A DNA stretch of 21,195 bases from Chrysochromulina tobinii. Its lineage: Eukaryota; Haptophyta; Prymnesiales; Chrysochromulinaceae. Of this stretch, positions 1-20,462 are shown in pieces. The stretch is taken from assembly GCA_001275005.1 (NCBI GenBank), contig JWZX01001489.1, positions 1 to 21,195 on the forward strand. The letters are read 5' to 3'. How positions within the stretch are numbered: the stretch's first letter is position 1; each line of letters begins with the position of its first letter. Position numbers and translations under genes: made by a program. The notes beneath the pieces were generated by a model. That model was given only the letters and a program-made list of their open reading frames with translations, did not search any database and was not told the DNA's origin.

Positions 1-579
1 CATTGCACGCCTCGCCTCGAGCGCCTCGCGGTACAGCACGCCCGCCTCGTCGAGCTTGCCCTGGTACTGAAGCAGCAAACCCAGATTAGCAATCGAGGTC
101 AGAGTGTCCGGATGCCGATCGCCGAGCGTCGCACGCTGCGCCTCGAGCGCCTCGCGGAGCAGCACGCCCGCCTCGTCGAGCTTGCCCTGGGCACGCAGCA
201 GCGTCCCCAGATTATTCATCGAGTCGAGGGTGTCCGAATGCCGATCGCCGAGCGTCGCACGCCTCGCCTCGAGCGCCTCGCGGTACAGCACGCCCGCCTC
301 GTCGAGCTTGCCCTGGTCCTGCAGCAGCATCCCCAGATTATTCATCGAGTCGAGGGTGCGCGGATGCCGATCGCCGAGCGTCGCACGCCTCGCCTCGAGC
401 GCCTCGCGGAACAGCCCGCCCGCCTCGTCGAGCTTGCCCTGGTCGTTCAGCAGCAGCCCCAGCTGGTTCTGCAGCACCGACGTCGCCCGCTCCTCGCGCG
501 GCATGCGCGCCAGCGCCGTAGCCCGCCGAGCGCCGTGCCGTGGTACGGGTGAAACTGTACCGCCAGTGACCCTCATCAT
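1..579 (-). CDS. TPR (kinesin-light-chain-like) repeat protein, 3' end outside window; truncated paralogue of the next gene
   Basis: The reading frame is open from a pair of ATGs (579 and 576) to the window edge, after an in-frame stop just upstream. From Met at 504 it matches the downstream gene: MPREERATSVLQNQLG here, MPREARATSVLQDRLG there. Four 42-residue TPR units follow, each with GKLDEAG, REALEARRATLGDRHP and NNLG signatures; the DNA repeats with a 126-bp period. Such TPR repeats form a helical scaffold for protein binding. The ~25 residues before the homology resemble nothing in the neighbour, and the TIR-like half is absent, so this is either a short TPR-only protein or a 5'-truncated duplicate. 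Units are more alike within this gene pair than expected for ancient repeats, which suggests recent duplication or gene conversion. The 3' end is not visible. Confidence 0.6.
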   Translation of the reverse strand, partial: MMRVTGGTVSPVPRHGARRATALARMPREERATSVLQNQLGLLLNDQGKLDEAGGLFREALEARRATLGDRHPRTLDSMNNLGMLLQDQGKLDEAGVLYREALEARRATLGDRHSDTLDSMNNLGTLLRAQGKLDEAGVLLREALEAQRATLGDRHPDTLTSIANLGLLLQYQGKLDEAGVLYREALEARRAM

Positions 580-631
580 CCGATCAGCCCTGCTCAACGC
601 CGCATCGGCATGTCACGCCGGGTCCATCTCG

Positions 632-2635
632 TCAGGAAGTGCCTACGCTGTGGGAACTGGCGGCCTCTTCCTCCTGCGAGAGCGCCACTGCGCAGCGACG
701 CGTCTCAGGGTGCTCCGGCCCGAGGACGGTCCTCATGCGCTCGAGGGACGCTTTCAGCGGGCTGAGCCCTCCGCCTGCCGCGCACTCGAGCCGGGCGTGG
801 ACGGCCTCGAGCAGCAGCGTCGTGTCCACCGTCGGGCCCAGCGCCGCACGCGCCGTGCTGAGCACGCGTGCATCCACGAGCGCGCGGGCGCTCTCGATGC
901 GACCTTGCGCGCGGCGCACGTCTGCGAGCCAGGCTTGCGAGCGCAGCCAGGTGCGATGGCCCTCTGAGAGCGTGGCCGCGCAGCCGTCGTGTGCTTCGAG
1001 GAGCAAGGTCTCGGCCTCGCCCAGCCGACCCTGGTCGTGCAGGAGCCGCCCGAGGTTGTTAATCGAGCCGAGGGTGTCCGGATGCCGATCGCCGAGCGTC
1101 ACACGCCTCGCCTCGAGCGCCTCGCGGTACAGCACGCCCGACTCGTCGAGCTTGCCCTGGTCCTTCAGCAGCACCCCCAGATTATTAATCGAGACGAGGG
1201 TGTCCGGATGCCGATCGCCGAGCGTCGCACGCCTCGCCTCGAGCGCCTCGCGGTACAGCACGCCCGCCTCGTCGAGCTTGCCCTGGTCCTGCAGCAGCGT
1301 CCCCAGATTATTAATCGAGGTGAGGGTGCGCGGATGCCGATCGCCGAGCGTCGCACGCCTCGCCTCGAGCGTCTCGCGGAGCAGCACGCCCGCCTCGTCG
1401 AGCTTGCCCTGATCCAGCAGCAGCAACGCCAGATTATTCATCGAGACGAGGGTGTCCGGATGCCGATCGCCGATCGTCGCACGCTTCGCCTCGAGCGCCT
1501 CGCGGAGCAGCACGCCCGCCTCGTCGAGCTTGCCCTGGGCCTGCAGCAGCCTCCCCAGCCGATCCTGCAGCACCGACGTCGCCCGCGCCTCGCGCGGCAT
1601 GCGCGCCAGCGCCGCGCGGCCCTCCGCCGCGAGCCACTCGCGCAGCGACGCGCACACCGTCGCCGTCACCGCGCCGATGCCGCCCTCCAGCTGCGCCACC
1701 TCGGCCAGGATGTAGTCGCGGTCCTCGATCATGGTGATCTGCGCGTCGGCCGCGTCGATACCCGCCACGATGCCCGCAATCTCGTCAAAGTCATCCGTCA
1801 GCAACTCCTCGAAGCCGTCCACGTCCGCGGGCGCGAGCACCACGTGCAGCGTCGCGCCCTTGGCGAGCGCCTTGACGAGCTCGAACATGCACCACGCGCG
1901 CGTCATCGCGCCCGGCCCGCGGCGCAACCAACCGGCGGGCGGCGCGCCGCGCTCGGGCAGCAAAAAGGGCTGGTTGGGCGCGGGCCACTCGGCCGTGAGC
2001 GGCGAGCAGTACAGGAGGAGCTCGCCGATGGCCGCCATCGCATCGGCAAACACGTGGTCCGTATCCTCCTTGCGCGCCGTGTGCTCCTCGCTGCCCCGGG
2101 GGTAGCGGCCGGCATCAAACTCGCCCGCGAGCAGCGTCTGAGAGGCCGCAAAGATGTCGATCCACACGTAGCGCGTCACGCCGTCGGAGGCCTCGAGCTC
2201 GGCCAGCCTGCGCTCGATGGCGTCGAGCATGTCGCCCAGCTTCGTGCCATCCCACGAGTACGAGAAGAAGGTGGTCGCGAGGCCGATGAGCGCGTCCACC
2301 ACCTCGCCGCGCGCCTCGGCCGTGAGCGCGAGCGACTCGATGAGCGAGAGCCCCGTCGAGCGCGTGAGCGCGCACACACTCCACTCGAAGCCCTCCTTCT
2401 TGATCAGGTCGCCCATCAGCATGCCGAGCGCGCCGCGCGCGCAGTAGAAGCGCCGGATGGCGCGCAGCATCTTGCGGGTGATGCCGCGCCGGCCGCTCGG
2501 CAGGCGGCGCGCGTGCGGGCGCACCGGCACTTTGAGCGTGCCCTTGGGCACGCGCGCCGCCGCGATCGCGTCGAAGAGCGCGTCGGCGAGGGATTCGGGA
2601 TCGTTCCGGATCGAATTCGACAAAGCGCAGCCCAT
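632..2635 (-). CDS. TIR-like / TPR repeat protein with predicted N-terminal acylation
   Basis: Single-exon gene of 667 residues from the chosen start. The frame is open 32 codons further up (to 2731), but the internal start gives MGCALSNS, a classic N-myristoylation plus palmitoylation signature (Gly2, Cys3, Ser6), so I prefer it; membrane attachment is inferred. Residues ~123-300 carry the signature of a TIR-like fold common in algal TPR proteins: FFSYSWDG, then YVWIDIFAASQ, then RAWCMFELVKAL. From ~residue 355 about five 42-residue TPR units follow (QGKLDEAGVL, EALEARRATLGDRHP, INNLG), then a degenerate helical tail. The arrangement resembles sensor/scaffold proteins of the NLR-like or kinesin-light-chain-like class, but no NTPase domain is visible. 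No introner-like intron is present, unlike most neighbours. Exact function unknown. Confidence 0.8.
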   Translation of the reverse strand: MGCALSNSIRNDPESLADALFDAIAAARVPKGTLKVPVRPHARRLPSGRRGITRKMLRAIRRFYCARGALGMLMGDLIKKEGFEWSVCALTRSTGLSLIESLALTAEARGEVVDALIGLATTFFSYSWDGTKLGDMLDAIERRLAELEASDGVTRYVWIDIFAASQTLLAGEFDAGRYPRGSEEHTARKEDTDHVFADAMAAIGELLLYCSPLTAEWPAPNQPFLLPERGAPPAGWLRRGPGAMTRAWCMFELVKALAKGATLHVVLAPADVDGFEELLTDDFDEIAGIVAGIDAADAQITMIEDRDYILAEVAQLEGGIGAVTATVCASLREWLAAEGRAALARMPREARATSVLQDRLGRLLQAQGKLDEAGVLLREALEAKRATIGDRHPDTLVSMNNLALLLLDQGKLDEAGVLLRETLEARRATLGDRHPRTLTSINNLGTLLQDQGKLDEAGVLYREALEARRATLGDRHPDTLVSINNLGVLLKDQGKLDESGVLYREALEARRVTLGDRHPDTLGSINNLGRLLHDQGRLGEAETLLLEAHDGCAATLSEGHRTWLRSQAWLADVRRAQGRIESARALVDARVLSTARAALGPTVDTTLLLEAVHARLECAAGGGLSPLKASLERMRTVLGPEHPETRRCAVALSQEEEAASSHSVGTS

Positions 2636-3058
2636 CGCTCGCGCGCGGGGGAGCACGCTAAATACTCTTCGCGACCAAACTTCAAACATGTTCAAACTTG
2701 TCGCGATGCAGGAGTGTGGTGAGAAAGCCACTGAGGGTTATCCAGCACATTTCGTGTTTGCGGTGTCCGTGTCTGTGCAGGGTATCGCGTGCACGGTGCA
2801 GTTGCGTCGTCAGAGGATGGAAGTAACGGAGGGGACGCAGCGACGCACAGTTTATCAGTTCGTACCCTATTACCCACAGTACTGTAATCAGTACATGTAT
2901 GCGGACTGCAATGAGCAGTCTGTGTCGAGGCTGTGTCGCGCGTGTGCATACGCTACTCTCTACTAGAGTCTAACCGAACCCCCAACACTCCAGTACGACG
3001 TCATCCTCAGAAAAAGTGACGAAACAACTCAGCTCTCAGCTATCGTTACCTGTGAAGG
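2636..3058. other. Intergenic region between two minus-strand genes
   Basis: About 420 bp, less GC-rich than the flanking genes. It holds the 5' flank of the TIR/TPR gene (towards 2636) and the 3' flank of the BTB gene (towards 3058). An 85-codon minus-strand ORF (2692-2949) and a plus-strand ORF running across 2457-2966 show no domain or repeat pattern. A weak TATA-like stretch lies at 2658-2665 on the minus strand, too close to the chosen start to be convincing. Nothing else is recognised. Confidence 0.5.
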
Positions 3059-3384
3059 CTATTCCGCGGTTGCAGCTGAAGGTCCTGGGCTATGCTTCGG
3101 TCGTGCGCGCGTCAGGCTTGCAGACTTTGAAGTGAAGCCGAAGAGAAAATGAAGGGCTCGCTCGAGGTTCCCGTCGGCGGCAGCGGCGGCGGCGACCACC
3201 TTCTCGCGCTCAAATCCCATGTTTACGCGGGCGAGGACGGTGGCTGCCGCCGAGTCTCGGTCCGCCAGCGCCGTAGTGGGCACTTGCATGCTGGGCGCCG
3301 CCGAGTCCTCCGCCAAACGGCGCCGTGCTGAGCACGCCAAGTCTCGGTCCTCCACCACATGCACGCCGCCTCCGCCTAAAGTCT

Positions 3385-3438
<54 letters not shown>

Positions 3439-6400
3439 TGCTGCTGCTGCTGCTGCTGTGAGCCGAGCTCGGAGGGAAGAGGATGCGCGCAGTGCCTCCC
3501 ATGGTGTGAACAGGGGCTGCGAGATCTGAGCTCGGAGGGAAGAGGATGCGCGCAGTGCCTCCCCCCTCACGGCCCGCCGCGCGATGGATGGAAAGCTTCG
3601 ACGATCCTTCCGACAATCTCGGCAATCTCCCCTCCCCAATCTCCGACGGAGGCACGCGCCCAGACTGATGGCCTTCCGACAATCTCGGCAATCTCCCCTC
3701 CCCAAACTCCGATGGAGGCACGCGCCCAGACTGATGGCCAGAGCCGCCCTCGTCTTTTGGACCCCCATTTGGCTCCCCTTTTGGCAACTCTGTGCTCGGG
3801 TAGAAGCCCGGGTGATAGAAGAGGTCGGCGAAGAGGTACGTGGACGAATCGCGCTCGGGACGGCGCGTAGACGTGTCGCGCACGCGTGCCGCGACCGGAG
3901 CCGGCGCTTGGGACGGCGCTCGAGCTGGCACGGGAGCTCGCACGGGAGCTCGCACGGGAGCTCGCGCGGGAGCCGGCGCTCGGTACGGCGCTCGAGCTCG
4001 CGCGGGAGCTCGCGCGGGAGCTCTGTCGAGCTCGAGCACACCCCCTACGGTCATCACCTGCGGGCATCAGTGGCAATCAGTGGCAATCAGAGGTCATCAA
4101 CGGTCATCACCTGCGGTCATCAGTGGCAATCAGTGGCAATCAGACGCCATCAACGGCCATCACCTGCGGGCTCTGACTGAGCCAAGTACGCCACGCGCGC
4201 CCAAGCATCAGCCGCAGGTACACACTCGGCTGGAGCAGCAACTGCTGCAGCCGGTGGCTGTCGAGCCCACGCAGGAGCGCAGAGTGCCCGAAACGGCGCG
4301 CGCCACCCTGGGTGATGACGAGGCTGTGGTTGCCTAATATGGAAAGGTCGAGAAGCTGCTCTTCGAGCGTGGCCTGCATCCAGATGCGCCACGCCCCGAG
4401 CAGCTGCCGCCGGAGCACCGCGCGTCGCAAGGCCACGAGCTGCGAGCCGGAGGCAATTCGTACGGCAATCAGTGGCAATCAGTAGAGGCAATCAGAGGCA
4501 ATCAGTGGGCAATTCGTAGTCATCAGTGGCAATCAGTAGAGGCAATCATAGGCAATCATAGGCAATCAGAGGCCATCCGAGGCCGAAAGCTGCGAGCCGA
4601 AGGCAATCAGTGAGTGGCAATCAGAGGTCATCAGCGGCCATCCGAGGCACTCACCGAGTCGTTACGCCCCATCCTCGCCGGATCCACCAAGAGGGAAGCG
4701 CGCTGCCGATGCACGAACTCGATGCATGCAAGCTCGAGCCCCCGAGAGCCCAGCCGCGTGGCAAGCTCGCGGCGGCTCGCCACGTTGTCGGCCGTGAGCG
4801 CCCGAATGCAGCTCGCCTGATAAAGGATGCAATCAAGAGGTCATCAGAGGTCATCAGAGGTCATCAGAGGTCATCAGAGCGCCCGAATGCAGCTCGCCTG
4901 ATGACGGAAAGGGTACAGTCGGAGCCAGCAGAGGCAATTGAAGCTCAGCAGAAGCCATCGGAGATGTCATCAGAGACGCAATCAGGGACGTCATCAGTGA
5001 CGTCATCGCGGACGCAATCAGGGACAATGGTGGCACTTCAGAGGCAATTGGAGGCAAATGAAGCGGCAATCAGCTCGCCTCCGCCAGCAGTTGGAGCTTC
5101 GTCAATCCAAATTCGAGGCCAAGTCCGAGCAGCTCGGTTGCATGCAAGTGGAGCGGCGCGTCCTCGATCACGCCGGTGTACACGAATGCGAGCGCCACGC
5201 GCATCAGGTGCGACGGGTGGGTCGTCGTGATGGTGTGAACAGGGGCCGCGAGATCTGAGCTGAGCTCGGGCTTTGTGTCGGCTACGGGTGCCCGATACGG
5301 CGCGTCGGCTACGGATGACCGGTACGGCGCGTTGACAACGGGTGGCCGGTACGGCGCGTCGGCTACGGGCTTTTTCGCCGGCGCTGCAGCCTTGGACATA
5401 GCTGCCGTCGCCTCGACAAGCTTGCGCGTCGTCGTGGGCGTCGCCTCGACAAGCTTGCGCGTGCCGCCCTCGACATCGCCGGACTGCATCTGCTTGAGCG
5501 CCGCAGCCTCGGCAGGCTTGATCGCAAGCTTGAGCGCCTCGTCATAAGCGCCGTCGGCTGCTAAGAATCGCATCCACTCGATGCGCCGCATCTCCTCCTG
5601 TGAGTCGCGTGCCTGATGAGGAGGGACAATCAGCATGCACTCAGGGAGGCACTCAAGCACAATCAGCATCTCCGCATCTCCTCCTGTGAGTCGCGTGCCT
5701 GATGCCCTCGAAAACGCCTGCACCCTAATGAGTGAGGCAATCAGTGGCCATCAGAGGCAATCAGAGGCCATCAGAGGTCATCAGCTCGCCTGGTGCCCTC
5801 GAATCCACGCCTGCACCCTAACCGCCGCCTTCTCCCACTTGCTAGATGTGATCTCAACCCTGGCGACCACGTGGCTGCTCGCTTCGGGGGAGCGCGGCGA
5901 TGCTCCTGACGAAGCTGCCCTCGCCTCGCTGAAGAGCGCTCGCGGCGACGCTCCTGACGAAGCTGCCCTCGCCTCGCTGAAGAGCGATCGGAAGTGATCG
6001 GACGCGGCCGCGAGCACGGCCTGGTGGGCATGGAGCGTCGTGCCGTCGGCCGAGCAAACGAATCGCACGTCGCACTGTGTCGAGAAGGCCGCGAGGAAGG
6101 CATGCACGCTCGGTGAGCCTGGTGCTGACGTGGCATGCACGCTCGGTGAGCCTGGTGCTGACGTGGTGTGGCCCTCCGCAGCCGCACGCTCAGCGGCACT
6201 CAATCGCGCGATGGCCGCTTCGAGCCATGCGACCTGGCTATCGCCCGCCTGTCTGTGAACAGGGCTGTGAACCGTCTGCATCTCGAGCTGGACGGCGAGG
6301 AGCCGCGCGAAACTGGATGGAGAGAGACCATCGATGTCTGTCTGCAGAGCCGGCTCGGCTGTGCTGGGCGCTGTGCTGGGCGCATTGTGCTCATAGCACA

Positions 6401-7097: not shown

Positions 7098-7921
7098 CGC
7101 CTCACTCGCCTTGATGCGCGCCTGCGCTTGCTTCAGGAAGAACTGTCTCTCGTACCCGTTGGAGCGGTCGACGCCGTCCCACCGGAAGCCCGGCGCGATG
7201 TTGAAGCGGTTGGGCGGCGGCGCGGGCCCGCGATACTTGGGCTTGGCGGGCCCTCCCGCAGCCGCCTGCTTCCTCGCCAGATGCTCCGCCATCGGATCGT
7301 CGAAGCGCACCACGGCGCGCTTCTCAGCATCGACGCTCGCGTCGAGATCGTGCCTGATGAAGGAGGCAATCAAGAGGTCATCAGAGGTCATCAGAGGTCA
7401 TCAGAGGTCATCAGAGGTCATCAGAGGTCATCAGAGGTCATCAGAGGTCATCAGAGGTTCTTCGCCGTCGAGATCGTGCCTCGCGACCGGCCCGGCGGCG
7501 GTGGTGCGCGCAAACTCGCGCCACTCGTCCTTCTCGCGCTGCTGGGCCAGGCCGGTGCCCCACGTGGGCTTCACACGCGCGGGCGGAGCGTCGTCCTGAG
7601 CGCCCAAGCCGGCGCCGGCGCCGCCCGTGTTCGATGGCTCGATCTTCTTGCCGAGCTTGTCGCGGTAGATGGTGGCTCGGCCCGCACCCAAGGCCATCGC
7701 GTCCGCCGCGCTCGCGCTCTCGCCTCTCAACGCCTCCGCGGCGGCGCTCGACTGCGACGCAAAGTGGGTATGCAGGCCAGGCGCAGCCAGGGCGGTGGAC
7801 GAGGCTGAATCGATCATCTGTGAACAGGGCTGTGAATCGATCATGGCGCCACGCGCGCTGCTGCTGCTGCTGCTGCTGCTGCTAGCGGCGCCCGCGGCGG
7901 CGGCGGAGGCGTCTCGCCGCG

Positions 7922-9480: not shown

Positions 9481-9958
9481 GCTGCCCATATTAGGCAGCA
9501 GGCCGGCAGAGGGCTCGACCTGATGAGGGACGCACTCAATCGCAATCAATCGCAATCAATTAGAGATGCAAGCGGGCCGGCAGAGGGCTCGACCTCTCTC
9601 GGCTATTAGCGAGCGTGCGTGACAGGCCATGCACAGCCGGTGCATGCAACCAGGGCATGCACAGCCGGTGCATGCAGCGAGTGCATGCAGCGAGTGCATG
9701 CACAGCCGGTGCTATGGTTATGCGGACACCGACCACCCGAACGCCGGACGACAGTGTACTATACGAGTGACTAGTGGAGTGTGTATAGGTTCTCTGATAG
9801 GATCTAGCTAGCTGCTCTCCGTCGTTTCCATAACGCGCCACGGGAGACGAAATGACACGAACAAATGTGTTATTTACGCCGGTCTCCCGATTGATACGAC
9901 CGCGGTGATCAATACAACGCGCGCAGGGCTCCCAGCTCTTCTGGCCGAGGCACGCCCA
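9481..9958. repeat. Convergent intergenic region with a family B element and GCATGC repeats
   Basis: Between the stops of two converging genes. A 21-bp direct repeat (9501-9521 and 9575-9595) flanks a family B-like insert that reads, on the minus strand, TGATTGCGAT units ending CCTCATCAG followed by GTCGAGCCC, so it is oriented for the minus-strand gene (possible 3' UTR intron). At ~9628-9713 a cluster of GCATGC palindromes in units such as CACAGCCGGTGCATGCA forms an irregular tandem array. A 24-bp perfect repeat lies at 9927-9950 and 9972-9995, reaching into the end of the glutaredoxin-like gene. No coding gene is recognised in the gap. Confidence 0.75.
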
Positions 9959-10600
9959 TCACGGCGCGCATGGCTCCCAGCTCTTCTGGCCGAGGAACCC
10001 CGCGAATACCTGTGTGTGCCGGCCTGAGTCGAAGAGCTCCTGCACCTCGTCTCCGCCGCCCACGAATGTACATTGCTCCCCGTAGATGAAGACCTGTGGG
10101 TAGGTGCGAGCGCCGCTTACGGCCCACAGCGCGTTCCGGACCTCCTTCATGGGCGGCGAGGCGCCGTCGACGGGCACGTAGTCGATGCCCTTGGCCTGCA
10201 GCTGCGTCTCCACTTTCCGCCATGCGACCTCGAAGAGCTGGTTCGAGGCGTAGCTCGTGAAGAGCACAATGCACTTGCCCTTGTACGGCTCGAGCGGGTC
10301 GCCGACGGCCGCGCTTGCCATCTCTGTCACGGGCGGTGCCAGCGGAGGCGGCGGCGGCGGCGGCATCGATGGCGCCGCCGCTGGAGCGGGAGCTGGAGCG
10401 GGAGCTGGAGTAGGAGCGGCGGCAGCAGCGGCGGGCGCGGGCGCAGGCGCCGCGATGACAGCACCTTCCACAAGCTGGGCGTCTTTTACCTCGACCCACG
10501 TGGTTTTACCGTCATCGAACTCCACCCGAAGTCGAGGACCCATGACTTTGAGTATGCGGCCAGAGCCTTTCGGCGTCCTCACAAGATCGCCCTCTTGCAT
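9959..10600 (-). CDS. Glutaredoxin-fold (SH3BGRL-like) protein with N-terminal Tudor/SH3-like domain
   Basis: 213 residues, single exon. Residues 1-45 (GDLVRTPKGSGRILKVMG, then LRVEFDDGKTTWVEV) look like a small beta-barrel of the Tudor/KOW/SH3 kind. Residues ~46-100 are an Ala-Pro linker with a Pro7 run. Residues ~107-205 have a thioredoxin-like pattern: KCIVLFTSYASNQLFEVAW, KGIDYVPVDG, and TYPQVFIYGE with the cis-proline. The CxxC/CxxS redox motif is absent (TSYASNQ), as in SH3BGR/SH3BGRL proteins, so a non-catalytic binding role is more likely than disulfide reduction. The last residues and stop fall in a 24-bp direct repeat (9927-9950 and 9972-9995), so the C-terminus may have been altered by that duplication. 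Start taken at the first Met. Confidence 0.72.
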   Translation of the reverse strand: MQEGDLVRTPKGSGRILKVMGPRLRVEFDDGKTTWVEVKDAQLVEGAVIAAPAPAPAAAAAAPTPAPAPAPAPAAAPSMPPPPPPPLAPPVTEMASAAVGDPLEPYKGKCIVLFTSYASNQLFEVAWRKVETQLQAKGIDYVPVDGASPPMKEVRNALWAVSGARTYPQVFIYGEQCTFVGGGDEVQELFDSGRHTQVFAGFLGQKSWEPCAP

Positions 10601-10845: not shown

Positions 10846-12478
10846 ATGGCGTCCGGGATCGGGTACACGCCGCTCCCGACCTGCAACAATCACCCACGAA
10901 GCACGTCGTCGTCGGTCGTTGGCTCGGCTCAGGCACTCGGCGTGGCGGTGCTGCTTGGGCTGAGCCTCGTCCTGTGCATCTGGTGGCGCACCGCAGCAGA
11001 CATCGGTCAATTCCCCGCACAGCGATGGCAGGAGCTGGCTCCAATCCCGGACGCGCTTGGCGTTGCTGGGCCGTTTGTGGGCGCCTCTGGCGGTGCGCTG
11101 CTCCTCGCGGGCGGTGCCAACTTTCCCGACCGACCACCGTGGGAGGGCGGCGCGAAGCACTGGCTCGATGCCGTGTACGCCCTGGAGTCTCCGCAGGCCA
11201 CACGCTGGATGCTCGTCGGTCGCCTGCCGCACCCGCTCGGGTACGGCGTCTCGGCGAGTTGGCGAGGCCGTCTGCTCTGCGTCGGTGGCAGCGACGGGTC
11301 GGCGCACCGTGCCACTGTCCTTGCTCTCCGGTACTCGTACCGCGTCGGCACCGGGACTGTGGAAATGGAGGCCGGCCCGTCGCTCCCAGTGGCTCTGGCG
11401 AACGCGGCTGGCGTGCTCGTGGGCGACGTGCTCTACGTGGCCGGCGGCTCCGCGAGCCCGCAGGCCACCGAGGCGTGTTCACAGCTGTGGAGATTGCATC
11501 TCGTCGAGGGCCTGAGTGCGAGCTCGTGGCGAGCGTTACCCTGCATGCATGCAAGTGCTCACGACGGCGCCCGCACCCCTCTCCCCACAGGTGCGAGCTC
11601 GTGGCGAGAGTTACCGGCCATCCCGGGCCCCGGGCGCGTGTTGCCGGCGATCGGGTGGAGCGGCCTCACCCAGCGAGTGCTGCTCATCAGTGGCGCGCGG
11701 CTGCTGCCAACGGCCGATGGCACGGGCTCGACTCGTGACGAACCCTGACGAACCCTGGCGAACCCTGACGAACCCTGGCGAACCCTGACGAACCCTGACG
11801 AACCCTGGCTGCTGCCAACGGCCGATGGCATGGGCTCGACGCGTGAGTTCCTTCGCGACGGTTTCGGTGGCATGCAAGTGCTCATCACGGCGCCTCTCGC
11901 TCCTCTTCCCACCACAGGTGAGTTCCTCCGGGACGGCTTCGCCTTCGACCCCGCACTGAGCACCTGGCGCAAGCTGAAACCACCGCCGCGCGCCATCGTC
12001 GGGTCGCCCGGCCCGGCGCTCGAGCTCACATCTCGCGCCGAGCTCACATCACCTTCCAAATTAGGAGCTCGGAATGCCATGCTCTTCCTGCCCGGGGACG
12101 ACGGCGCCCACTTTGGGGAGCAAGCGGTACGTCCTGATTACGACTGATTGCGACTGATTGCGACTGATTGCGACTGATTGCGACTGATTGCGACTGATTG
12201 GATTGGCTTCCCTATCACAGGCCCTCAAGGATCGTCACCCGGGCTTCGGCGCTCTGATGATGAGCTACAGCGAAATCGAGGACAGCTGGAGCACAGTTTC
12301 GTCAAGTGCCATGGCCTTCCCGGGCGGAGCGCCCGTGACGACGCCGGCGGCCCGCTGGGGTGCGTTGTGGGTGATCCCGAGCGGCGAGGTGCGCCCTGGG
12401 GTGCGCACACCGCGGGTGGTGGCTTTGGTGCTGCCCGGGGGCGAGGCAAGGGGCGAGGAGGCTCAGGCTGCAACTTAG
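10846..12478 (+). CDS. Membrane-anchored NanM-like Kelch beta-propeller (sialate epimerase / mutarotase family), four exons
   Basis: Exons 10846-11515, 11591-11734, 11918-12126 and 12221-12478 give 426 residues; phases 1, 1 and 0 all match. An N-terminal hydrophobic segment (~30-45: ALGVAVLLGLSLVLCIWW) suggests a signal anchor. The rest follows bacterial N-acetylneuraminate epimerase (NanM) and the related cyclically permuted mutarotases: ANFPDRPPWEGGAKHW, GYGVSASW with LLCVGGSDG, LANAAGVLVGDVLYVAGGS, SWRELPAIPGPGR, REFLRDGFAFDP, PGDDGAHFGE and KDRHPGFGALMMSY. These are successive propeller blades. NanM interconverts sialic acid anomers; here a secretory-pathway or surface sugar isomerase is inferred, with catalysis unproven. 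Both of the first two splice junctions fall exactly at duplicated exon edges made by introner insertion. A bacterial origin of the domain is possible. Confidence 0.82.
11516..11590 (+). mobile_element. Kelch gene intron 1: single family A introner, 75 nt
   Basis: The intron is a 25-bp copy of the following exon edge (11516-11540 against 11591-11615, 24 of 25 identical) plus a 50-nt module (11541-11590). The module begins CTGCATGCATGCAAGTGCTC and ends CCCTCTCCCCACAG. The duplicated exon supplies the donor (CTGA|GTGCGAGC); the module supplies the pyrimidine tract and acceptor. It is 75 nt without an in-frame stop, so retention adds 25 residues rather than truncating. Confidence 0.9.
11735..11917 (+). 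mobile_element. Kelch gene intron 2: family D array plus family A introner
   Basis: 183 nt, donor ACTC|GTGACGAACC, acceptor CCACCACAG|GTGAGTTCC. First comes ~6 copies of an 11-nt CGAACCCTG(A/G) unit flanked by a 40-bp exon duplication (11699-11738 and 11807-11846, 38 of 40 identical). Then a family A module (CATGCAAGTGCTCATCACGG, from 11871) is flanked by a 24-bp duplication starting GTGAGTTCCT (11843-11866 and 11918-11941). Two successive insertions therefore built one intron. Confidence 0.82.
12127..12220 (+). repeat. Kelch gene intron 3: family B array
   Basis: 94 nt, donor AAGCG|GTACGTCC, acceptor TTCCCTATCACAG. The body is about six copies of the 10-mer CGACTGATTG on the sense strand. 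No flanking duplication is visible, unlike most other family B introns. Confidence 0.8.
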
Positions 12479-12752
12479 GTCTAAAGGCAATGGCTCGCCG
12501 CCAATTAGCAATTTTCGTTCGTTTCGTTGTTTCCCACAAATAAGTCACAGTTCTTAAGGCAATGGCTCGCCGCCAATTTTCGTTACGTTTCGTTGTTCCC
12601 ACAAATAAGTCACCCGAGTTCGTCATTTCCAGAACCGGCCTGGAAGTTGCACTTCGCTTCGTCAAACTCGTGAGGACGAAATTGATTCCCTTCGGTCGTC
12701 CACAAGCCTCCAACTCACGAGGAGAGGCCTTTCAGAACAACTCACACGCGAC
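12479..12752 (+). repeat. Intergenic stretch with an imperfect ~65-bp direct repeat
   Basis: Between two plus-strand genes. A unit starting AAGGCAATGGCTCGCCGCCA and ending with CACAAATAAGTCAC occurs at ~12484-12548 and ~12556-12613. The first copy carries a small insertion (TTAGCAA). This is probably the 3' UTR of the Kelch gene. No other feature seen. Confidence 0.7.
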
Positions 12753-13603: not shown

Positions 13604-14887
13604 TCAACGCTCAAGCAGCCGGCGCAGCGCCACCTGCGGCTGACGAATCATACTCGCATCCACCTCGAGCTTCGTCAGCGCCGTCCCGGGCAGCTCAAAC
13701 TTGAAGTGACGAAGCGCACCTTCCAGAACGGTGAGCAGCCCCCGTGCCCCGGTCTGCTCGGCGGTCGGTCATCCGTGCTCATCAGTGGCAGTCAATAGCA
13801 ATCAGCGGCACTCAGCGGCACTCTGCGGGGGCACTCAGCGGCACTCAGCGGCACTCAGCGGCACTCAGCGGCACTCAGCGACACTCGGCGACACTCAGTG
13901 GCAATCAGAGGCAATCAGAGGCAATCAGTGGCAATCAGAGGCAATCAGAGGCAATCAGTGGCAATCAGTGGCAATCAGAGGCAATCAGTGGCAATCAGTG
14001 GCACTCGCCTGTTCGGCGGCCGCTCGGCGCGCCACCTCGCGCAGAGCGCACGGGAGAAGCACGAGCTCGATCTCGTACCTGCAATCACGATGGCAATCAC
14101 GATGGCAATCAAGCGCAATCACGGGAGCAGCACGAGTTCGATCTCATACCTTCCACAATCAGAGGCAATCACGATGGCAATCAAGCGCCATCCGATGGCG
14201 CGATCTGAGGCCATCCGATCTGGCGCGCTCGAGATCACGATGGCAATCAATCTGGCGCGCTCGAGATCTGGCGCGCACCCTTCGAAATCTCGCACGATCT
14301 GCGCCGCCACCGAGTCGTGCGCGTCGGTGAGCACCTGTGGGGAGAGGGGGGGGCGGGCGCCGTAGTGAGCACTTGCATGTTGGCACTCACGTGCGCGTCG
14401 GTGAGCACCCGAAACAGATCGGCCTCGCGCAGCCGTTGGCACGGACGCGCCGTAGTGAGCACTTGCATGCAGGCACGCACCCGAAACAGATCGGCCTCGC
14501 GCAGCCGTTGGCACGCGACGCGCACGGGGATGCGCCCGATGAACTCTGGCTCGAGTCCATGGCGTACCTGTGGGGAGAGGGGCGTTGTAGTGAGCACTTG
14601 CATGCAGGCCGACCCGATGAACTCTGGCTCGAGTCCATGGCGTACCTGTGAGGAGAGGGGGAGCGGGCGCCGTAGTGAGCACTTGCATGCAGGCCGAGAG
14701 CGCGCGCGGGGATGCGCCCGATTGAACTCTGGCGCACCTGCCATATTAGGTACTCGTGAGGGCACTCAGCACGCAATCGAAACGCAATCAGAACGCAATC
14801 AGGCGCAATCATACGAAATCGGCCGTCTGCGCCAAATGAAGTACGTCAGGGAGCTCTTCCTTCGCCTCCGCCTCTTGCTGCTGCTGC

Positions 14888-14924
<37 letters not shown>

Positions 14925-17586
14925 GGTACTGATGCTGCAGCGATGCGTCGAGTTGGGTGAACGCGCCCGAGAAGACGAAGAGCACGTGCCTGATGAGAGA
15001 GGTCATCAGAGGTCATCAAACGTCATTAGAGGACATCAGAGACCATCAGAGGTCACCAGAGGCCATTAGAGGCCATCAGCGAAGGCGAAGGGCACGTGCC
15101 GTGTGCGTAGGATGGCAATCAGAGGCAATTAGCGGTAATCAGGGCACGCGCCGTGTGCGTAGGATGGCAGCCTCCTCCTCTCTTCGGCTGGTAGTGCCGC
15201 CGCCGCCGCCGGGATGATGATGACCGACAAGGGGGCTGGGGCGTCCGAGGCGTGGCGGCATGCCTGCCTGCGCCGTCGCGGGCTGCAGAGGAACCTCCGC
15301 ATCCTCCATCAGCTTGAGGAATGCGAATTGCACCTGATGACGGAAGTCATTAGAGGTCATTAGAGGTCATTCGAGGTCATTAGAGGTCATCCGAGGCCAT
15401 CGAGGCCACTCAGAGGCCTCTCAGAGGCCATGCGAGGCCATCAGAGGCCATCCGAGCTGATGAGGTAGGCAATCAGGGCTCATCAGGGCTCATCACCTTG
15501 CGCTCCGTCTCAGTAGGGTGGAGCTCATCGTCCCTGATGAGGTAGGCAATCAGAGGGCAATCAGGGCTCATCAGAGGTCATCAGGGGTCATCAGAGGCCA
15601 TGCGAGCTGATGAGGTAGGCAATCAGAGGGCAATCAGGGGCCATGCGAGGCAATCAGAAGCCACTCATCAGAGCTCATCAGCGAGCGCACCTCCTTGGTA
15701 TTGACCCCGCTGATGATGGAAGCAATCAGACGCAATCAGAGCTCATCAGCGAGCGCACCTCCTTGGTATTGACCCCGCTGATGATGGAAGCAATCAGACG
15801 CAATCAGAGCTCATCAGCGAGCGCACCTCCTTGGTATTGACCCCGTTGCCACCGCCTCCTCCAAAGACACCTTGCGATGCTTTGACCGCGAGCTTATCCA
15901 CCTCGTCCACATAGACAATCCCAAACTCGGCTAAGCTCACGTCGCCGTTGGCCGCGGGCACGAGCGCGCGCACCTGTCACCAGTGGTCATCAGAGGTCAT
16001 CAGAGGCAATCAGAGGTCATCAGAGGCAATCAGACGCAATCAGAGGCAATCAGTCGCAATCAGAGGAGCTGACCGCATCTTCGACGTCGGCGCCCACGTA
16101 GCCTGTAGCGCTAAACTTGGTCGCGTCGGCCTTGGCGAAGGGCACTCCCAGCAGCCGCGAGAGGGCGCGCATCAGGTGCGTCTTCCCCACACCTGCCATC
16201 AGCGGTCATCAGTGGTCATCAGAGGTCATCAGAGGTCATCAGAGGTCATCAGAGGTCATCAGAGGTCATCAGAGGTCATCAGAGGTCATCAGTCAGCTGC
16301 GTCTTTCCCACACCGGACGGTCCAAGCAGCAGCACGTTCTGATGAAGGAGGCCATCAGAGGCAATCAGAGGCAATCAGAGGCAATTAGAGGCCATCAGAG
16401 GCAATCAGAAGCAATCAGCCCACACCGGACGGTCCGAGCAGCAGCACGTTCGGCTTCACGTGATGTGTCTCCGCGAGGGCGGGCTCGGCGAGGCAGCGCC
16501 GTGCGAAGTTGTAGTGGTCACACACGGCGACCGAGAGCGCGCGCTTCGCCTCGTCCTGGCCGATGACGAACCTGTGGGGAGAGAGTGGCGTTGTAGTGAG
16601 CACTTGCATGCTGGCCGTGAGGTTCGGCTCTAGGCCGAGGACGCACCGGTCGAGATGTGCCTTCATCGGAGGAAGGAGGCAATCAGCATGCACTCAGCGA
16701 GGACGCACCGGTCGAGATGCGCCTTCACCTGCCTCGGGGTCAGTCGGAAGTCTCGGATCGCCTGGCGCATGTGTGCGACGGCGGCGCGCTCGGTACGGCG
16801 CGTGTCTAGGGGCGGCGCCTCCTCGGAGCGCTCGGTACGGCGCGTGCTCTCGGCGCGCTCGGTACGGCGCGTGACATCCGCCGCCGAGGAGAAGGGATCG
16901 TTCGATGGCGTACCTGTGGGGAGAGGGGCGGGCGCCGTAGTGAGCACTTGCATGCAGGCCGAGGAGAAGGGATCGTTCGATGGCGTACCTGTGGGGAGAG
17001 GGGCGGGCGCCGTAGTGAGCACTTGCATGCAGGCCGAGGAGAAGGGATCGTTCGATGGGCGCTGCTGCTGCTGCTGCTGCCGCTGCTGCTGCTGCTGCTG
17101 CAAGGAGGAGGAGGAGGAGGAGGAAGAGGACGGCGGCGGCCACATGGATGTCGGCTGCTGACCGCTACGGTCGATGACCACGCGCCCGGCGGCCTCCTGC
17201 GGGTCGACGCGGCCGGCAGGCAGCTCAAGCGGGCCCTCGTCCTCGATGAAATCACCCGCGAGCCCGCTCAGGCCGCGGCGCCGTCTGACGCGGTGCTCGG
17301 CGGCCTCGCGTCGGATCTGCTCCGCCTGCTCCTTGGACGAGAGCGGCCGCGCCTCTTCGGAAGTTTCTTCGGACGCACCGACGGCGTGCAGGTATGACTC
17401 GAAGCTCGTCGCTTCGTCCACTGGCGGCAGCCGGCGCGCGTAGGCCGCCTTTGCCGCCTCCGCCTCTGCAGCGGCGACCGCATCGGAGGCCTGGCCGATG
17501 AGCGAGGCGAGCGGGCTGTGCGGCCGCGGCCATGCGAGATTGTGCACGCCGCGCCGCTGGAGGCGCGGGAGGAGACGGCCAAACAT
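13604..17586 (-). CDS. CLPX: ClpX-type AAA+ unfoldase, probable mitochondrial, ten exons
   Basis: Exons: 17586-16709, 16571-16426, 16192-16074, 15973-15827, 15333-15152, 14989-14815, 14567-14481, 14334-14279, 14078-14009, 13753-13604; 669 residues. The start [17 protein letters not shown] looks like a mitochondrial presequence. Exon 1 is Ser/Gln-rich and carries two tandem introner copies. The AAA+ core follows Clp[21 protein letters not shown], Walker A GPSGVGKT (~338-345), pore loop GYVG, Walker [10 protein letters not shown] (~400-408), [11 protein letters not shown], sensor 1 [22 protein letters not shown] with the arginine finger, and sensor 2 TGARGL. The N-terminal C4 zinc domain is not visible. 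Between sensor 1 and GLEPEF, where ClpX has the IGF loop that docks ClpP, there is polyglutamine instead. It resembles HslU at [10 protein letters not shown], but the overall order is ClpX. Every junction preserves the frame. Confidence 0.88.
13754..14008 (-). repeat. ClpX-like intron 9: GC-AG, long family B arrays
   Basis: 255 nt. Donor GAACAG|GCGAGTGCC, acceptor CGCCGAGCAG|ACCGGG. GCCGCCGA(A/G)CAG occurs on both sides. The first half is TGATTGCCTC/TGATTGCCAC units, the second half CGCTGAGTGC units, so two array types are joined. Splicing yields [11 protein letters not shown]. Confidence 0.78.
14079..14278 (-). repeat. ClpX-like intron 8: composite family B intron
   Basis: 200 nt, donor GAAGG|GTGCGCGCC, acceptor GTGATTGCAG|GTACGAG. 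Contains TTGATTGCCATCG units, a duplicated GATCTCGAGCGCGCCAGAT, and an internal ~30-bp copy of the downstream exon edge (from GTATGAGATCGAACTCGTGC). The relic differs from the real exon at several bases, as expected of a non-coding copy. Confidence 0.75.
14335..14480 (-). mobile_element. ClpX-like intron 7: truncated plus complete family A introners
   Basis: 146 nt, donor CGG|GTGCGTGCC, acceptor CCCCACAG|GTGCTCACC. Upstream is a family A copy lacking its pyrimidine tract and AG (about 14448-14472), flanked by a >30-bp exon duplication. Downstream is a complete copy (14335-14382) flanked by GTGCTCACCGACGCGCAC. Only the complete copy can provide the acceptor. Confidence 0.82.
14568..14814 (-). 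mobile_element. ClpX-like intron 6: family B array plus two family A introners
   Basis: 247 nt, donor GATTTC|GTATGATTGC, final acceptor CCCCACAG|GTACGCCATGG. In sense order: a family B array ending AATATGGCAG; a partial exon-edge copy; family A copy (14646-14692); a second exon-edge copy of ~33 bp (about 14613-14645); family A copy (14568-14607); the real exon. The outermost exon-edge relic is the most diverged, so insertions appear to have been added stepwise towards the 3' exon. Confidence 0.85.
14990..15151 (-). repeat. ClpX-like intron 5: GC-AG family B intron
   Basis: 162 nt, donor CACACG|GCGCGTGCCC, acceptor CTCTCATCAG|GCACGTGCTC. CATCCTACGCACACGGC is repeated inside with a diverged copy of the downstream edge (GCACGTGCCCTTCGCCTTCG against GCACGTGCTCTTCGTCTTCT). 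The body is TGATGGCCTC/TGATGACCTC units. Confidence 0.78.
15334..15826 (-). repeat. ClpX-like intron 4: 493-nt composite with 68-bp tandem unit
   Basis: Donor AAGGAG|GTGCGCTCG, final acceptor CCGTCATCAG|GTGCAATTC. Next to the donor, an exact 68-bp period (GAGCTCATCAG starts at 15671, 15739 and 15807) repeats the end of exon 4 plus a short TGATTGC array ending CATCATCAG. Further in, several CTACCTCATCAG acceptor-like sites alternate with TGATTGCC/TGATGACC units. A 37-nt non-repeat island lies at 15497-15533. Splicing the outermost sites gives [14 protein letters not shown], which fits ClpX. Confidence 0.75.
15974..16073 (-). repeat. ClpX-like intron 3: family B array
   Basis: 100 nt, donor GATGCG|GTCAGCTCC, acceptor GGTGACAG|GTGCGCGCG. 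Made almost wholly of TGATTGC/TGATGAC units in the sense strand; no clear flanking duplication. Confidence 0.78.
16193..16425 (-). repeat. ClpX-like intron 2: composite family B intron splitting the Walker A motif
   Basis: 233 nt, donor CCGTCCG|GTGTGGGC, acceptor GATGGCAG|GTGTGGGG. A 32-bp copy of the Walker A coding sequence (starts AACGTGCTGCTGCT) lies inside, behind CCTTCATCAG, with TGATTGCCTC units on one side and a regular TGATGACCTC array on the other. The internal copy even keeps the GGAAAGACGCA that encodes GKT, so it is a relic of the coding sequence. Confidence 0.8.
16572..16708 (-). mobile_element. ClpX-like intron 1: family B plus family A composite
   Basis: 137 nt, donor CTCGACCG|GTGCGTCC, acceptor CCCCACAG|GTTCGTC. 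A short family B insert (TGAGTGCATGCTGATTGCC) is flanked by a 29-bp duplication (GAAGGC(G/A)CATCTCGACCG and on); downstream is a family A copy (16572-16614). Outer splicing restores [12 protein letters not shown]. Confidence 0.82.
16883..17063 (-). mobile_element. Two tandem family A introners in ClpX-like exon 1, 75-nt period, open in frame
   Basis: Family A modules at 16914-16957 and 16989-17032 (44 nt each, identical) alternate with three copies of a ~31-bp exon segment (CCATCGAACGATCCCTTCTC). Each 75-nt unit is in frame and encodes [15 protein letters not shown] plus [10 protein letters not shown]. The 3' copy can be removed as a GTACGC...CCCCACAG intron. The 5' copy has only a possible GC donor (C|GCCCATCG). 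Protein length is 669, 644 or 619 residues depending on splicing. Confidence 0.88.
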
Positions 17587-17744: not shown

Positions 17745-19593
17745 ATGAAGAGCGTCAAGATGCCAGCCTCGCCCAACAGCGGTTCGCTGCGCGTGCGCCT
17801 CTCGCACGCCATCGGCCTGCGCTCCATGGACAGCAACGGCTACTCGGACCCGTACGTCAAGCTCACGCTAGGCAAGGAGACGCACAAGTCGGAGGTCGTG
17901 AAAAAGAGCCTCAACCCGCGCTGGGACAAGGACTTCTTCTTCCGCGGCGGCTTTGAGCAGCTCGTTGCGCTGCCGCTCCAGGTGCACGCCTGGGACCACG
18001 ACCGGCTGAGCTTCCGCAACGATCCGCTCGGCAACGGCTCGATCGATCTGCGTCAGTTGGACCTCGGCTCGTGCCAGGCCGTGGACTGCTCGGTGCAGCT
18101 CAAGGACGAGCAGGCGACGCCCGGCGAGGTCTTCTTCACCATCCAGTGGCAGCCCGACGCGGGCGCGGCCCATGCGCCGCCGCCGCCGCCGCCGCTGCCG
18201 CCGCCGCCCGCCGCGCACGTGTCGGGTGCCCAATACGCCGCGCACGTGTCGCCACTGAGCTACGGTGGCGGCAGCGTCGGGTACGGCAGCACCTATCTGA
18301 ACGGCGCGTACGGCAGCAGCGGCGGCAGCGGCGTAGTACGCCCCTTGGGCGCGGTGCAGGCCAAGGTGGCCCAGACGTTCCATCACTTCGACGCCAACCG
18401 GAGCGGCTTCCTCGACCACAGCGAGCTGCGCAATGCGCTCCGTCATTATGGGCTGAGCGACCTGACTGTCGAAGGGGCGCAGGTGAGTGCCGTTGAGTAC
18501 CGTTGATTACCGTTGATTACGGGCGGAGCGACAAAGGGGCGCAGGTGAGTGCCACTGATTGTCCGTTGATTGTCCGTTGATTGCCTGTTGATTGTCCGTT
18601 GATTGTCCGTTGATTGTCTGTTGATTGTCCGTTGATTGTCCGTTGATTGTCCGTTGATTGCCTGTTGATTGTCTGTTGATTGCCCGTGGAGCGCCTGTGG
18701 ATTCTCCGCTAATGGGCGTTGATTGCGACGCTAATGGGCGTTGATTGCCCGTGGAGCGCCTGTGGATTCTCCGCTAATGGGCGTTGATTGCGAGCGCAGT
18801 CGGTGGTGCGCCGGTATGATGACACCCCAGATGGCAAGCTCGACCTCGCCGAATTCACCGAGCTCATCCGAGATGTCGAGGCGGGCGTGGTGCGCAGCCA
18901 AGGGCGTAACCACACCTACTACCCTGCATGCATGCGAGTGCTCACGACGGCGCCCGTACCCCTCTCCCCACAGGTGCGCAGCCCAGGGCGTGACCACGCC
19001 TACCCAGTGCCCGCGCGTGTCTCGGCCGCCTTTGACGCCTTCGACGCGGACCAGAGCGGCTACATAGACCATCGTGAGCTTCGGGCTGCGCTGCGCTACT
19101 ATGGGTACGTTGATTACCCGTTGATTACCATTCATAGCCTTTGATTACGTCTAAGTGCGACTGATGACGTCTGAGTGCGTCTGATTGCATCTGAGTGCGT
19201 CTGGATCGCATCTGATGACGTCTGATTGCGTCCCTCATCAGGTTCGAGGCGACAGAACCCGAGGCCATCGCCCTTGTGCGCGTCTACGATGACGACCCGA
19301 ACGGCAAGCTCGATCGCATCGAGTTCGCGACGCTGGTGCGCGATCTCGAACGCGATCTCGAACGCGATCTCGAACGCGATCTCGTGCGCGATCTCGAAGG
19401 CCGCCCCTGCATGCAAGTGCTCACGACGGCGCCCGCCCCCCTCTCTCCCCACAGGTGCGCGATCTCGAGGGCGGGATCGTGCGGCGCGAGGGGCGCGCCG
19501 CCAAGCAGACCGAAGCCGAAGCGCGTGGCATGGCCCCGGCGGGCTACCAGCACGGCGCCTCAGCCTCCACCGACTGCTGCTCTGCCCTCTGCA

Positions 19594-19634
<41 letters not shown>

Positions 19635-20462
19635 ACTGGCAAGTGGTCCACTCGGAGCGACGATTGGTTGCCCACGAGCGCTCAGGACGGCGCGCCCACG
19701 ACGGCGTGCGAGCGGCTGAGCGGCGCGTGCGCGTACCTGATGGACGTCGCGTTCCGGGCGTTGTGCTACGCGATGATGACGGCCCTCATCATCGCACCCG
19801 ATCGGCTGCGTTCCACAGCAGACGCGATGGCGCGCGTCGTCGTGGGCGAGGAGTCTGCCGAGGCGCTGCGCCACCGTTACGGCGCCCTCTTGGTGCTCAT
19901 CACGGCGCTCGCCGGTACGACGCTCCTGCTCGCGTGGGTCGTCGTCAACTGCAGGCGAGCTGATGGCCTCTGATTGCAGTTGATGATGACCTCTGATTGC
20001 ATGCTGATTGGGTCGTCGTCAACTGCAGGCGAGCTGATGGCCTCTGATTGCAGTTGATGACCTCTGATTGCATGCTGATTGGGTCGTCATCAACTGCAGG
20101 CGAGCTGATGGCCTCTGATTGCAGTTGATGATGACCTCTGATTGCATGCTGATTGGGTCGTCGTCAACTGCAGGCTGGGCAAGCGCGCCTCGGACGCGAT
20201 GCTCGGATGCGTCAGTTGCCTAAAATGGGGCTGCAGCTGCGCGCGCTGCTGGCGCGCATGCATCGGGCGTGGCGCCCAGAACGGCGCGTCCGATCGCTAT
20301 GCCGAGGGCACCGAATATGGGTCTAAGTATGAGGTCGAGCGCTATGGTGGGCGCGCCGTTCTGGGCACCGAATATGGGTCTAAGTATGGTGAGTATGAGG
20401 GCGAGCGCTATGGTGGGCGCGCCGGGTCACGCTGGCGCGATCAGCGCAGCGATCTCTACTGA
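17745..20462 (+). CDS. C2-domain, four-EF-hand, two-TM calcium-binding membrane protein, six exons
   Basis: Exons 17745-18482, 18800-18889, 18974-19104, 19242-19335 (or to 19383), 19455-19954 and 20174-20462; 613 residues. A C2 domain (~10-140) has the usual pattern SLRVRLSHAIGLRSMDSNGY, SDPYVKLTLG and LNPRWDKDF with VHAWDHDRLS, including calcium-binding Asp residues. A Pro- and Gly-rich linker follows. Then two EF-hand pairs: DANRSGFLDHSE with DDTPDGKLDLAE, and DADQSGYIDHRE with DDDPNGKLDRIE; the pairs are alike, so an ancestral pair was duplicated. Gly13, two hydrophobic segments (LCYAMMTALIIAP and LLVLITALAGTTLLLAWVVV) and a Cys-rich tail ending in EYGSKYE/GERYGGRA repeats complete it. A membrane calcium sensor is inferred. 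Start could also be Met at 17760. Confidence 0.85.
18483..18799 (+). repeat. C2/EF-hand intron 1: family B array, duplicated donor region
   Basis: 317 nt, donor GCGCAG|GTGAGTGCC, acceptor GCGAGCGCAG|TCGGTGG. A 20-bp segment spanning the exon end and donor (18472-18491) is perfectly repeated at 18534-18553. The body is ~10 copies of GTCCGTTGATT-type 11-mers, then two copies of a ~60-nt CTAATGGGCGTTGATTGC-containing unit. Confidence 0.82.
18890..18973 (+). mobile_element. C2/EF-hand intron 2: single family A introner
   Basis: 84 nt. A ~33-bp exon copy (18890-18922 against 18974-19006, about five mismatches) followed by a 50-nt module (18924-18973) ending CCCTCTCCCCACAG. Donor GGCGTG|GTGCGCAGCC comes from the duplicated exon, as in the Kelch gene. 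Confidence 0.88.
19105..19241 (+). repeat. C2/EF-hand intron 3: family B array
   Basis: 137 nt, donor TATGG|GTACGTTG, acceptor CCCTCATCAG|GTTCGAG. TTGATTACC units give way to TGATGACGTC/TGATTGCGTC units. No flanking duplication is clear. Splicing yields RYYG|FEATEPEA, matching the first EF-hand pair (RHYGLSDLTVEGA). Confidence 0.8.
19336..19454 (+). mobile_element. C2/EF-hand intron 4: family A introner with two possible donors
   Basis: The module (19407-19454) ends CTCTCTCCCCACAG; the exon copy GTGCGCGATCTCGAAGGCCG (19384-19403) matches 19455-19474 at 18 of 20. The donor may be 19336 (119-nt intron) or 19384 (71-nt intron); both are GTGCGC and in phase. The 48 nt between are repeats of GATCTCGAACGC. 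The longer intron gives the protein that aligns best with the first EF-hand pair. Confidence 0.8.
19955..20173 (+). repeat. C2/EF-hand intron 5: GC-AG intron of three ~70-nt tandem units
   Basis: 219 nt, donor CTGCAG|GCGAGCTGATGG, acceptor CAACTGCAG|GCTGGGC. GTCGTC(G/A)TCAACTGCAGGC, the exon edge, recurs ahead of each unit, and each carries TGATTGCAGTTGATGA and CTGATTGCATGCTGATT. Any unit could be removed alone; the outer sites give NCR|LGKRASD. Confidence 0.82.

Follow-up and report, generated by a model that had tools for sequence, protein, structure and literature searches.

Can a short repeated module that carries only half of an intron make a whole one by taking the other half from the exon it enters? 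The locus that raises this question lies in a kelch-like gene of the alga Chrysochromulina tobinii, within a 21,195-nucleotide stretch of contig JWZX01001489.1 that was analysed as a whole and is called the window here. An initial annotation, made from the sequence alone, had described the insertion at this locus as one of a set of "family A" introns, each composed of a copied piece of exon followed by a module. We found all eleven modules of its list (at 11541, 11871, 14335, 14448, 14568, 14646, 16572, 16914, 16989, 18924 and 19407), and all eleven are, as it had claimed, in the sense orientation of their hosts in our gene models, namely the kelch-like gene (+), a ClpX-like gene (−) and a C2/EF-hand gene (+). 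Near-identical sequence is therefore shared across predicted introns of three unrelated genes in the window, which is the property by which introners are recognized. A twelfth, degenerate module lies at about 3255–3297 on the minus strand.

Ten of the modules in the window are complete, that is, they end in ACAG. The claim that every complete module is preceded by an exon copy starting with GT held for eight of the ten; the other two (14646 and 16989) are the upstream members of tandem pairs, and their upstream copy is decayed by indels in the former and lacks the GT in the latter. The eight GT-starting copies measure 14, 18, 19, 24, 25, 30, 31 and 33 bp and are 86–100% identical, a wider range of lengths than the 20–33 bp (85–100% identity) first given. 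Module 14448, which lacks a 3′ splice site, lies between perfect repeats of 39 bp. The coordinates are collected in Table 1.

Table 1. Host genes, family A modules with their exon copies, and repeat-type insertions, in window coordinates.
Feature	Position	Strand	Remark
Host gene 1, kelch-like protein	10846..12480	+	ends approximate
Host gene 2, ClpX-like AAA+ protein	13605..17586	−	ends approximate
Host gene 3, C2 domain and EF-hands	17745..20460	+	3′ end approximate
Focal dup1, intronic exon copy, 5′ splice site GTGCGA	11516..11540	+	25/25 identical to empty allele L189
Focal module, 50 nt, ends CCCCACAG (3′ splice site)	11541..11590	+	
Focal dup2, exonic copy	11591..11615	+	24/25 to empty allele
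Second copy, dup1	11843..11866	+	14-nt deletion in L189
Second copy, module	11867..11917	+	
Second copy, dup2	11918..11941	+	88% identical to dup1
dup1, 19 nt, 100%	14390..14408	−	
Module, GT..AG = 74 nt (not a multiple of 3)	14335..14389	−	
dup2 of module 14335	14316..14334	−	
Truncated module without 3′ splice site	14444..14476	−	between 39-bp repeats 14405–14443 and 14477–14515
dup1, 33 nt, 100%	14613..14645	−	
Module, GT..AG = 78 nt	14568..14612	−	
dup2 of module 14568	14535..14567	−	
Module, upstream member of tandem pair, upstream exon copy decayed	14646..14689	−	
dup1, 14 nt, 86%, old	16633..16646	−	
Module with decayed filler, GT..AG = 75 nt	16572..16632	−	
dup1, 31 nt, 100%	16958..16988	−	
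Module, GT..AG = 75 nt	16914..16957	−	
dup2 of module 16914	16883..16913	−	
Module, upstream member of tandem pair, upstream copy without GT, open frame through module	16989..17029	−	
dup1, 30 nt, 90%	18890..18919	+	
Module, GT..AG = 84 nt	18920..18973	+	
dup2 of module 18920	18974..19003	+	
dup1, 18 nt, 94%	19384..19401	+	
Module, GT..AG = 71 nt by nearest copy, 119 nt in gene model	19402..19454	+	
dup2 of module 19402	19455..19472	+	
10-bp repeat introns/insertions	4796–4902, 5586–5704, 7340–7481, 9497–9595, 14049–14151, 16307–16451, 16636–16727		

We regard family A as probably an introner-like element that combines a portable 3′ splice region with a long exon copy, and we infer that it is inserted via template switching or long-stagger repair. 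The portable region would consist of a conserved core, GCATGCAAGTGCTCACCACGGCGC, with a putative branch point in its CTCAC; after the core would come a variable tract of pyrimidines and CACAG. Insertion of the module into an exon would leave about 15–45 nt of that exon on either side of it; where this stretch starts with GT (or GC), its upstream copy would act as the 5′ splice site, and exon copy and module would be removed together in a single intron of some 79 nt, leaving the message unchanged. The insertion step itself would join a module fragment between long local duplications rather than proceed by transposase cut-and-paste with a fixed short stagger, and two candidate routes are polymerase template switching and the fill-in of nicks 15–45 nt apart.

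How common is this architecture in the genome? The initial annotation had proposed a genome-wide search for the module and a collection of its flanks. In 53,154,812 bases on 2253 contigs, the exact 15-mer head of the module, CATGCAAGTGCTCAC, occurs 932 times (460 and 472 on the two strands; 0 and 1 for the reversed control), while the core endings GTGCTCACCACGGCGCC and ...GCGCG have 668 and 112 exact copies, respectively, with none in the controls. A longer form of the module, which begins GTACGTTGATTGCC or GTGAGTGCCACTGAT, gave 259 matches to its joint, GATGACCTGCCTTGCATGCAAG, with at most two mismatches (control 0). The flanks were taken from 269 distinct copies, a non-random sample of part of the genome comprising the loci at the first 100 listed places of the 15-mer, those with the best matches at the DNA level and, for the G-ending form, most of its listed places. 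The full intron signature, defined as a module that ends in a pyrimidine-rich AG, is followed by GT or GC and has on its upstream side a copy of the following exon with a score of at least 10, was present in 121 of these; the remaining 148 were nested, truncated, of another type or decayed, or had none that we found.

Among the 121 signature copies, the median length was 27 nt for the duplication (5–95%: 13–42) and 79 nt for the intron (5–95%: 64–93), and the GT..AG lengths modulo 3 were distributed as 42, 31 and 48. In an earlier subset of 90, the introns start with GT (82) or GC (8) and favour G/A, C and G at positions 3–5, and the last base of the upstream exon is G in 75, with A at −2 in 45. 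When each of the 121 copies was paired with the downstream exon of another copy, a duplication of equal score appeared in 31 of 2420 trials, and triplet shuffling of the window left no local duplication of the module type in three of three shuffles. The co-opted 5′ sites favour GTGCG or GTACG. An odd U1 was considered as the cause and ruled out, since the U1 snRNA of this genome (C924:1867–2023) has a canonical 5′ end, ATACTTACCTG.

The claim that the module brings only the 3′ splice site fits the short form; it fails for the longer form, the end of which supplies the 5′ site in some copies. In a mirror form at L051, the module opens with GTGAGTGCCACTGATTACC right after the exon CAG, and the CAG of the duplicated exon closes the predicted intron. 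Likewise, in L033, L064, L082 and L171, the module end would be the 5′ site and the duplicated exon would give the 3′ AG. The mirror form thus indicates that one element can supply either splice site, as far as sequence tells. The module ends vary on both sides, and the filler that precedes the core measures −6 to 52 nt; another core lies within 140 nt for 60 of the 269 copies, and 15 of the 269 are near-identical tandem repeats of the whole unit.

Is there an allele from before the insertion? A comparison of presence and absence among relatives, also suggested at the outset, showed the focal insertion to be polymorphic. An IMG/VR contig (IMGVR_UViG_3300027760_000958, positions 1–4554; L189) is chimeric, being phage-like to about 4205 and then consisting of about 345 bases of the alga's kelch-like gene. 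Its site is empty and reads ...GGCCTGA GTGCGAGCTCGTGGCGAGCGTTACC GGCCATCC..., with the 25-bp segment in single copy and no module; elsewhere, it differs from the window by 8 substitutions in about 345 aligned bases. L189 runs from the variant of the intronic copy straight into the downstream exon, which a simple collapse of the window allele during assembly would not produce. The single base that distinguishes the two copies in the window has the state of L189 (A) in the intronic one and that of the protein relatives P0122 and P0123 (E) in the exonic one, a split that may reflect either an older polymorphism or the join of two alleles. At the second intron, the deletion in the L189 exon copy would be tolerable only if that copy is intronic. 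Of 28 loci in the viral collection, only L189 carries the module, the other 27 being chance matches by context; a further search of that collection found no module, and no relative of the kelch-like protein was found in it.

In a protein alignment with six relatives, the focal insertion is absent from five, P0122 (85 member sequences), P0123 (7), P0124, P0125 and P0127, of which P0122 and P0123 are the nearest, at 93% identity. It is present in P0121 (5 member sequences) as a naive read-through. Presence and absence therefore mark a new intron position at this one site. The empty allele also bears on ordinary tandem duplication of an AGGT-bearing exon segment, which the module would have entered afterwards. 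That introns can arise by tandem duplication is accepted, according to the available parts of PMC4974935 and PMC3443670, but this route would leave adjacent copies with both splice sites from the duplicated AGGT, whereas here an interposed module brings the AG. The same module stands between both copies at 121 of 269 places, and the empty allele has neither the second copy nor the module, which makes this origin very improbable.

Between the two introns of the kelch-like gene, at 11699–11846, lies an array of CGAACCCTGA/CGAACCCTGG units between 40-bp exon copies; its unit number differs by 30 nt in L189.

Are the exon copy and the module spliced out together? The focal insertion is 75 nt long with an open frame, and P0121 carries it as read-through, so the focal site alone is no proof of splicing. 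We therefore evaluated the reading frame across copies with a model of codon positions, for which 822 codons of the window genes served as the training set and which was applied to 120 nt on each side. The frame was kept in 44 of 50 confident pairs when GT..AG was removed, compared with 13 of 50 when it was retained and 20 of 50 when the module alone was removed. Across thresholds of 0 to 8, removal of GT..AG kept the frame in 51/67, 49/61, 46/56, 44/50 and 35/39; at the loosest (n = 67), retention kept it in 22 and module-only removal in 25. Composition-based strand scoring was unreliable, with 86 and 93 of 121 scored as sense, then 8/18 and 8/11, and finally 1/6 and 0/2 as the thresholds were tightened.

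The host proteins were examined as well. The predicted spliced exons of the ClpX-like gene encode 434 residues up to the stop, and the named neighbours of the protein are from the haptophytes Chrysotila carterae (56% identity), Prymnesium parvum (57%) and Emiliania huxleyi (52%), over about two thirds of the query, alongside some metagenomic and many bacterial matches. The C2/EF-hand gene model has intact EF-hands and is collinear with P0241, P0244 and P0247 over both introner sites, and for its C2 domain the match to Chrysochromulina tobinii is 89% and covers 25% of the query. The frames of the two genes are broken unless the introns at 14335 (74 nt) and 19407 (71 or 119 nt), respectively, are removed. 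Frame and homolog comparison thus point indirectly to splicing at GT..AG, and the initial reading of the intron as duplicated exon (5′ site) plus module (3′ site) is borne out by frame continuity only with both parts removed, by homologs that stay collinear across the sites in the ClpX-like and EF-hand genes, and by the empty allele and homologous proteins without the insertion. Could the insertions instead be in-frame coding sequence or assembly artefacts? The open frame of the focal insertion would fit such a reading, as would the mostly in-frame copies without a 3′ site, but the frame test, the two frame-breaking introns and the five member sequences of P0121 that carry the insertion speak against it; we consider this reading hardly credible.

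Copies that lack both splice sites provide a natural control, since splicing could not take them out. Among 16 copies with neither site, the offset (36 to 87 nt) is divisible by 3 in 14, the exceptions being L076 (58) and L181 (82); the binomial p of 1.2e-5 against one third is exploratory, as the hand sorting was done after viewing. Sorting was by hand because automatic sorting mixed in tandem units, neighbours of complete copies and carriers of a 5′ site. Left out were the remaining rows of the 30-row candidate list and of a list of 75 rows lacking a 3′ site, the unclear rows L129, L160, L162, L168 and L183, and the array L158 (25 nt, not divisible by 3), with which the count becomes 14/17; L132, L054 and L178 are borderline. 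The duplications at copies without splice sites are 14–47 nt, as long as those at spliced-type copies, and their length therefore stems from insertion and not only from selection for spliceable introns.

What kind of insertion leaves such duplications? Fresh copies, taken as those with 95% identity and a duplication of at least 15 nt, have broadly spread duplications of 15–58 nt (median 29, n = 72), the lower bound being set by the filter; 11 of the 72 are in tandem units, as judged by a long leftward match. Given this spread, the suggestion in the initial annotation that duplications of such length mean another insertion mechanism is a reasonable inference. A small non-autonomous DNA transposon (a MITE-type introner), moved by a fixed-stagger transposase with duplications extended later, is distinctly improbable. 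Most introner families with clear signatures fit this type, according to the available part of PMC9860276, and the module ends, CTG...CAG, have three inverted bases in common; however, the spread is at odds with a fixed short target duplication, inspection by eye of the 50-nt module found only CTG/CAG instead of terminal inverted repeats of at least six bases, both module ends vary, and L189 shows that all 25 bp were duplicated at the insertion itself rather than by later extension. Target-primed reverse transcription of a short, SINE-like RNA, antisense to the host gene, is in our judgement unlikely: it would account for long variable duplications and for one-sided truncation (copies ending at GGCGC), but the opposite end varies too, in the filler before the core. 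Reverse splicing of intron RNA alone was rejected because it predicts no exon duplication.

Compared with target-primed reverse transcription, template switching or repair synthesis is in our view the better candidate. The tandem iteration of the whole unit would be easy for iterated template switching. On the other hand, the joins of spliced-type copies showed no excess of junction microhomology, which counts against template switching: matches of 0–3 bases between upstream flank and module end were observed 22, 44, 19 and 16 times, compared with 22, 44, 24.7 and 16.1 under random dealing. Beyond position 2700, the window contains 56 local duplications (score at least 16, insert at least 8), some of them internal to arrays, compared with 0 in the shuffled control; their inserts contain the family A core in 9, the 10-bp TGATTGCC/TGATGACC repeats in 28 and neither in 19. 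Long local duplication thus seems to be a habit of the genome rather than of one module, which favours a repair or replication process.

Other parts of the window are built on similar lines. The introns or insertions of 10-bp TGATTGCC/TGATGACC repeats are flanked by exon duplications of 16–33 bp and have the same architecture with another module. At 9919–9995, a 32-bp duplication encloses a 13-nt filler, CACGCCCATCACG, resembling part of the family A core, and TGTGAACAGGGCTGTGAA-like words, perhaps a further short module, recur near local duplications at 3505, 5233, 6254 and 7819. At 1–1653, 126-bp tandem repeats, possibly TPR-like, occur in what looks like minus-strand coding sequence.

The bulk origin of introns is a long-standing question, and here the two halves of an intron can be read separately, one as a repeated cassette and the other as a local, dated copy of exon, together with an allele that has neither. 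As a tentative extension, family A may belong to a transposase-free class of intron making, in which template switching or gap repair would place copies of a minimal branch-point/3′ splice cassette in exons, and each event would duplicate 15–45 nt of exon. The host would give the other half of the intron; the cassette would supply either site depending on the extent copied, or become an in-frame coding insert if it supplies neither, and the process could be a major intron source in haptophytes. If this is true, the 5′ third of each intron would be unique to its locus, and screens that need matching intron ends would be blind to the family.

How does family A compare with known introners? Work by Huff in 2016 reportedly found that, in Micromonas and Aureococcus, one splice site of an introner comes from the target duplication. 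As far as the available descriptions go, Micromonas, Aureococcus and Symbiodinium resemble the present case in that a short repeated element makes introns with one splice site from the duplicated target, but their duplications are 4–8 bp and they have terminal inverted repeats, whereas here the duplications are 15–58 nt, no inverted repeat is clear and the ends vary. The available part of PMC9860276 makes co-option of one splice site from the target duplication already known, describes Symbiodinium elements that carry the 3′ site and take the 5′ site from the duplication, and gives 3–9 bp duplications for cut-and-paste introners. In the large screen described there, similarity had to set in, at either boundary, no more than ten bases into the intron, so introns with at least 15 unique 5′ bases should be missed. 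In searches of open-licence PMC papers, we found no report of introners with such long exon duplications, nor of a family with variable duplications of 15–58 nt in which the 5′ third of the intron is a locus-specific exon copy. The introners of Chrysochromulina sp., a related alga, have 4 bp duplications and an element that carries the 5′ site, unlike the short form of family A (PMC9860276, available part). New introns of Daphnia, attributed to staggered break repair in the accessible part of PMC4202315, repeat an exon segment at the opposite end of the intron, as here, but with repeats of 4–12 bp and inserts that are not one shared module. Finally, in a known system of which a partial account was available, a copied exon turns into an intron and leaves the protein unchanged; the likeness lies in the copied exon serving as intron, whereas in family A a shared module between the copies supplies the AG.
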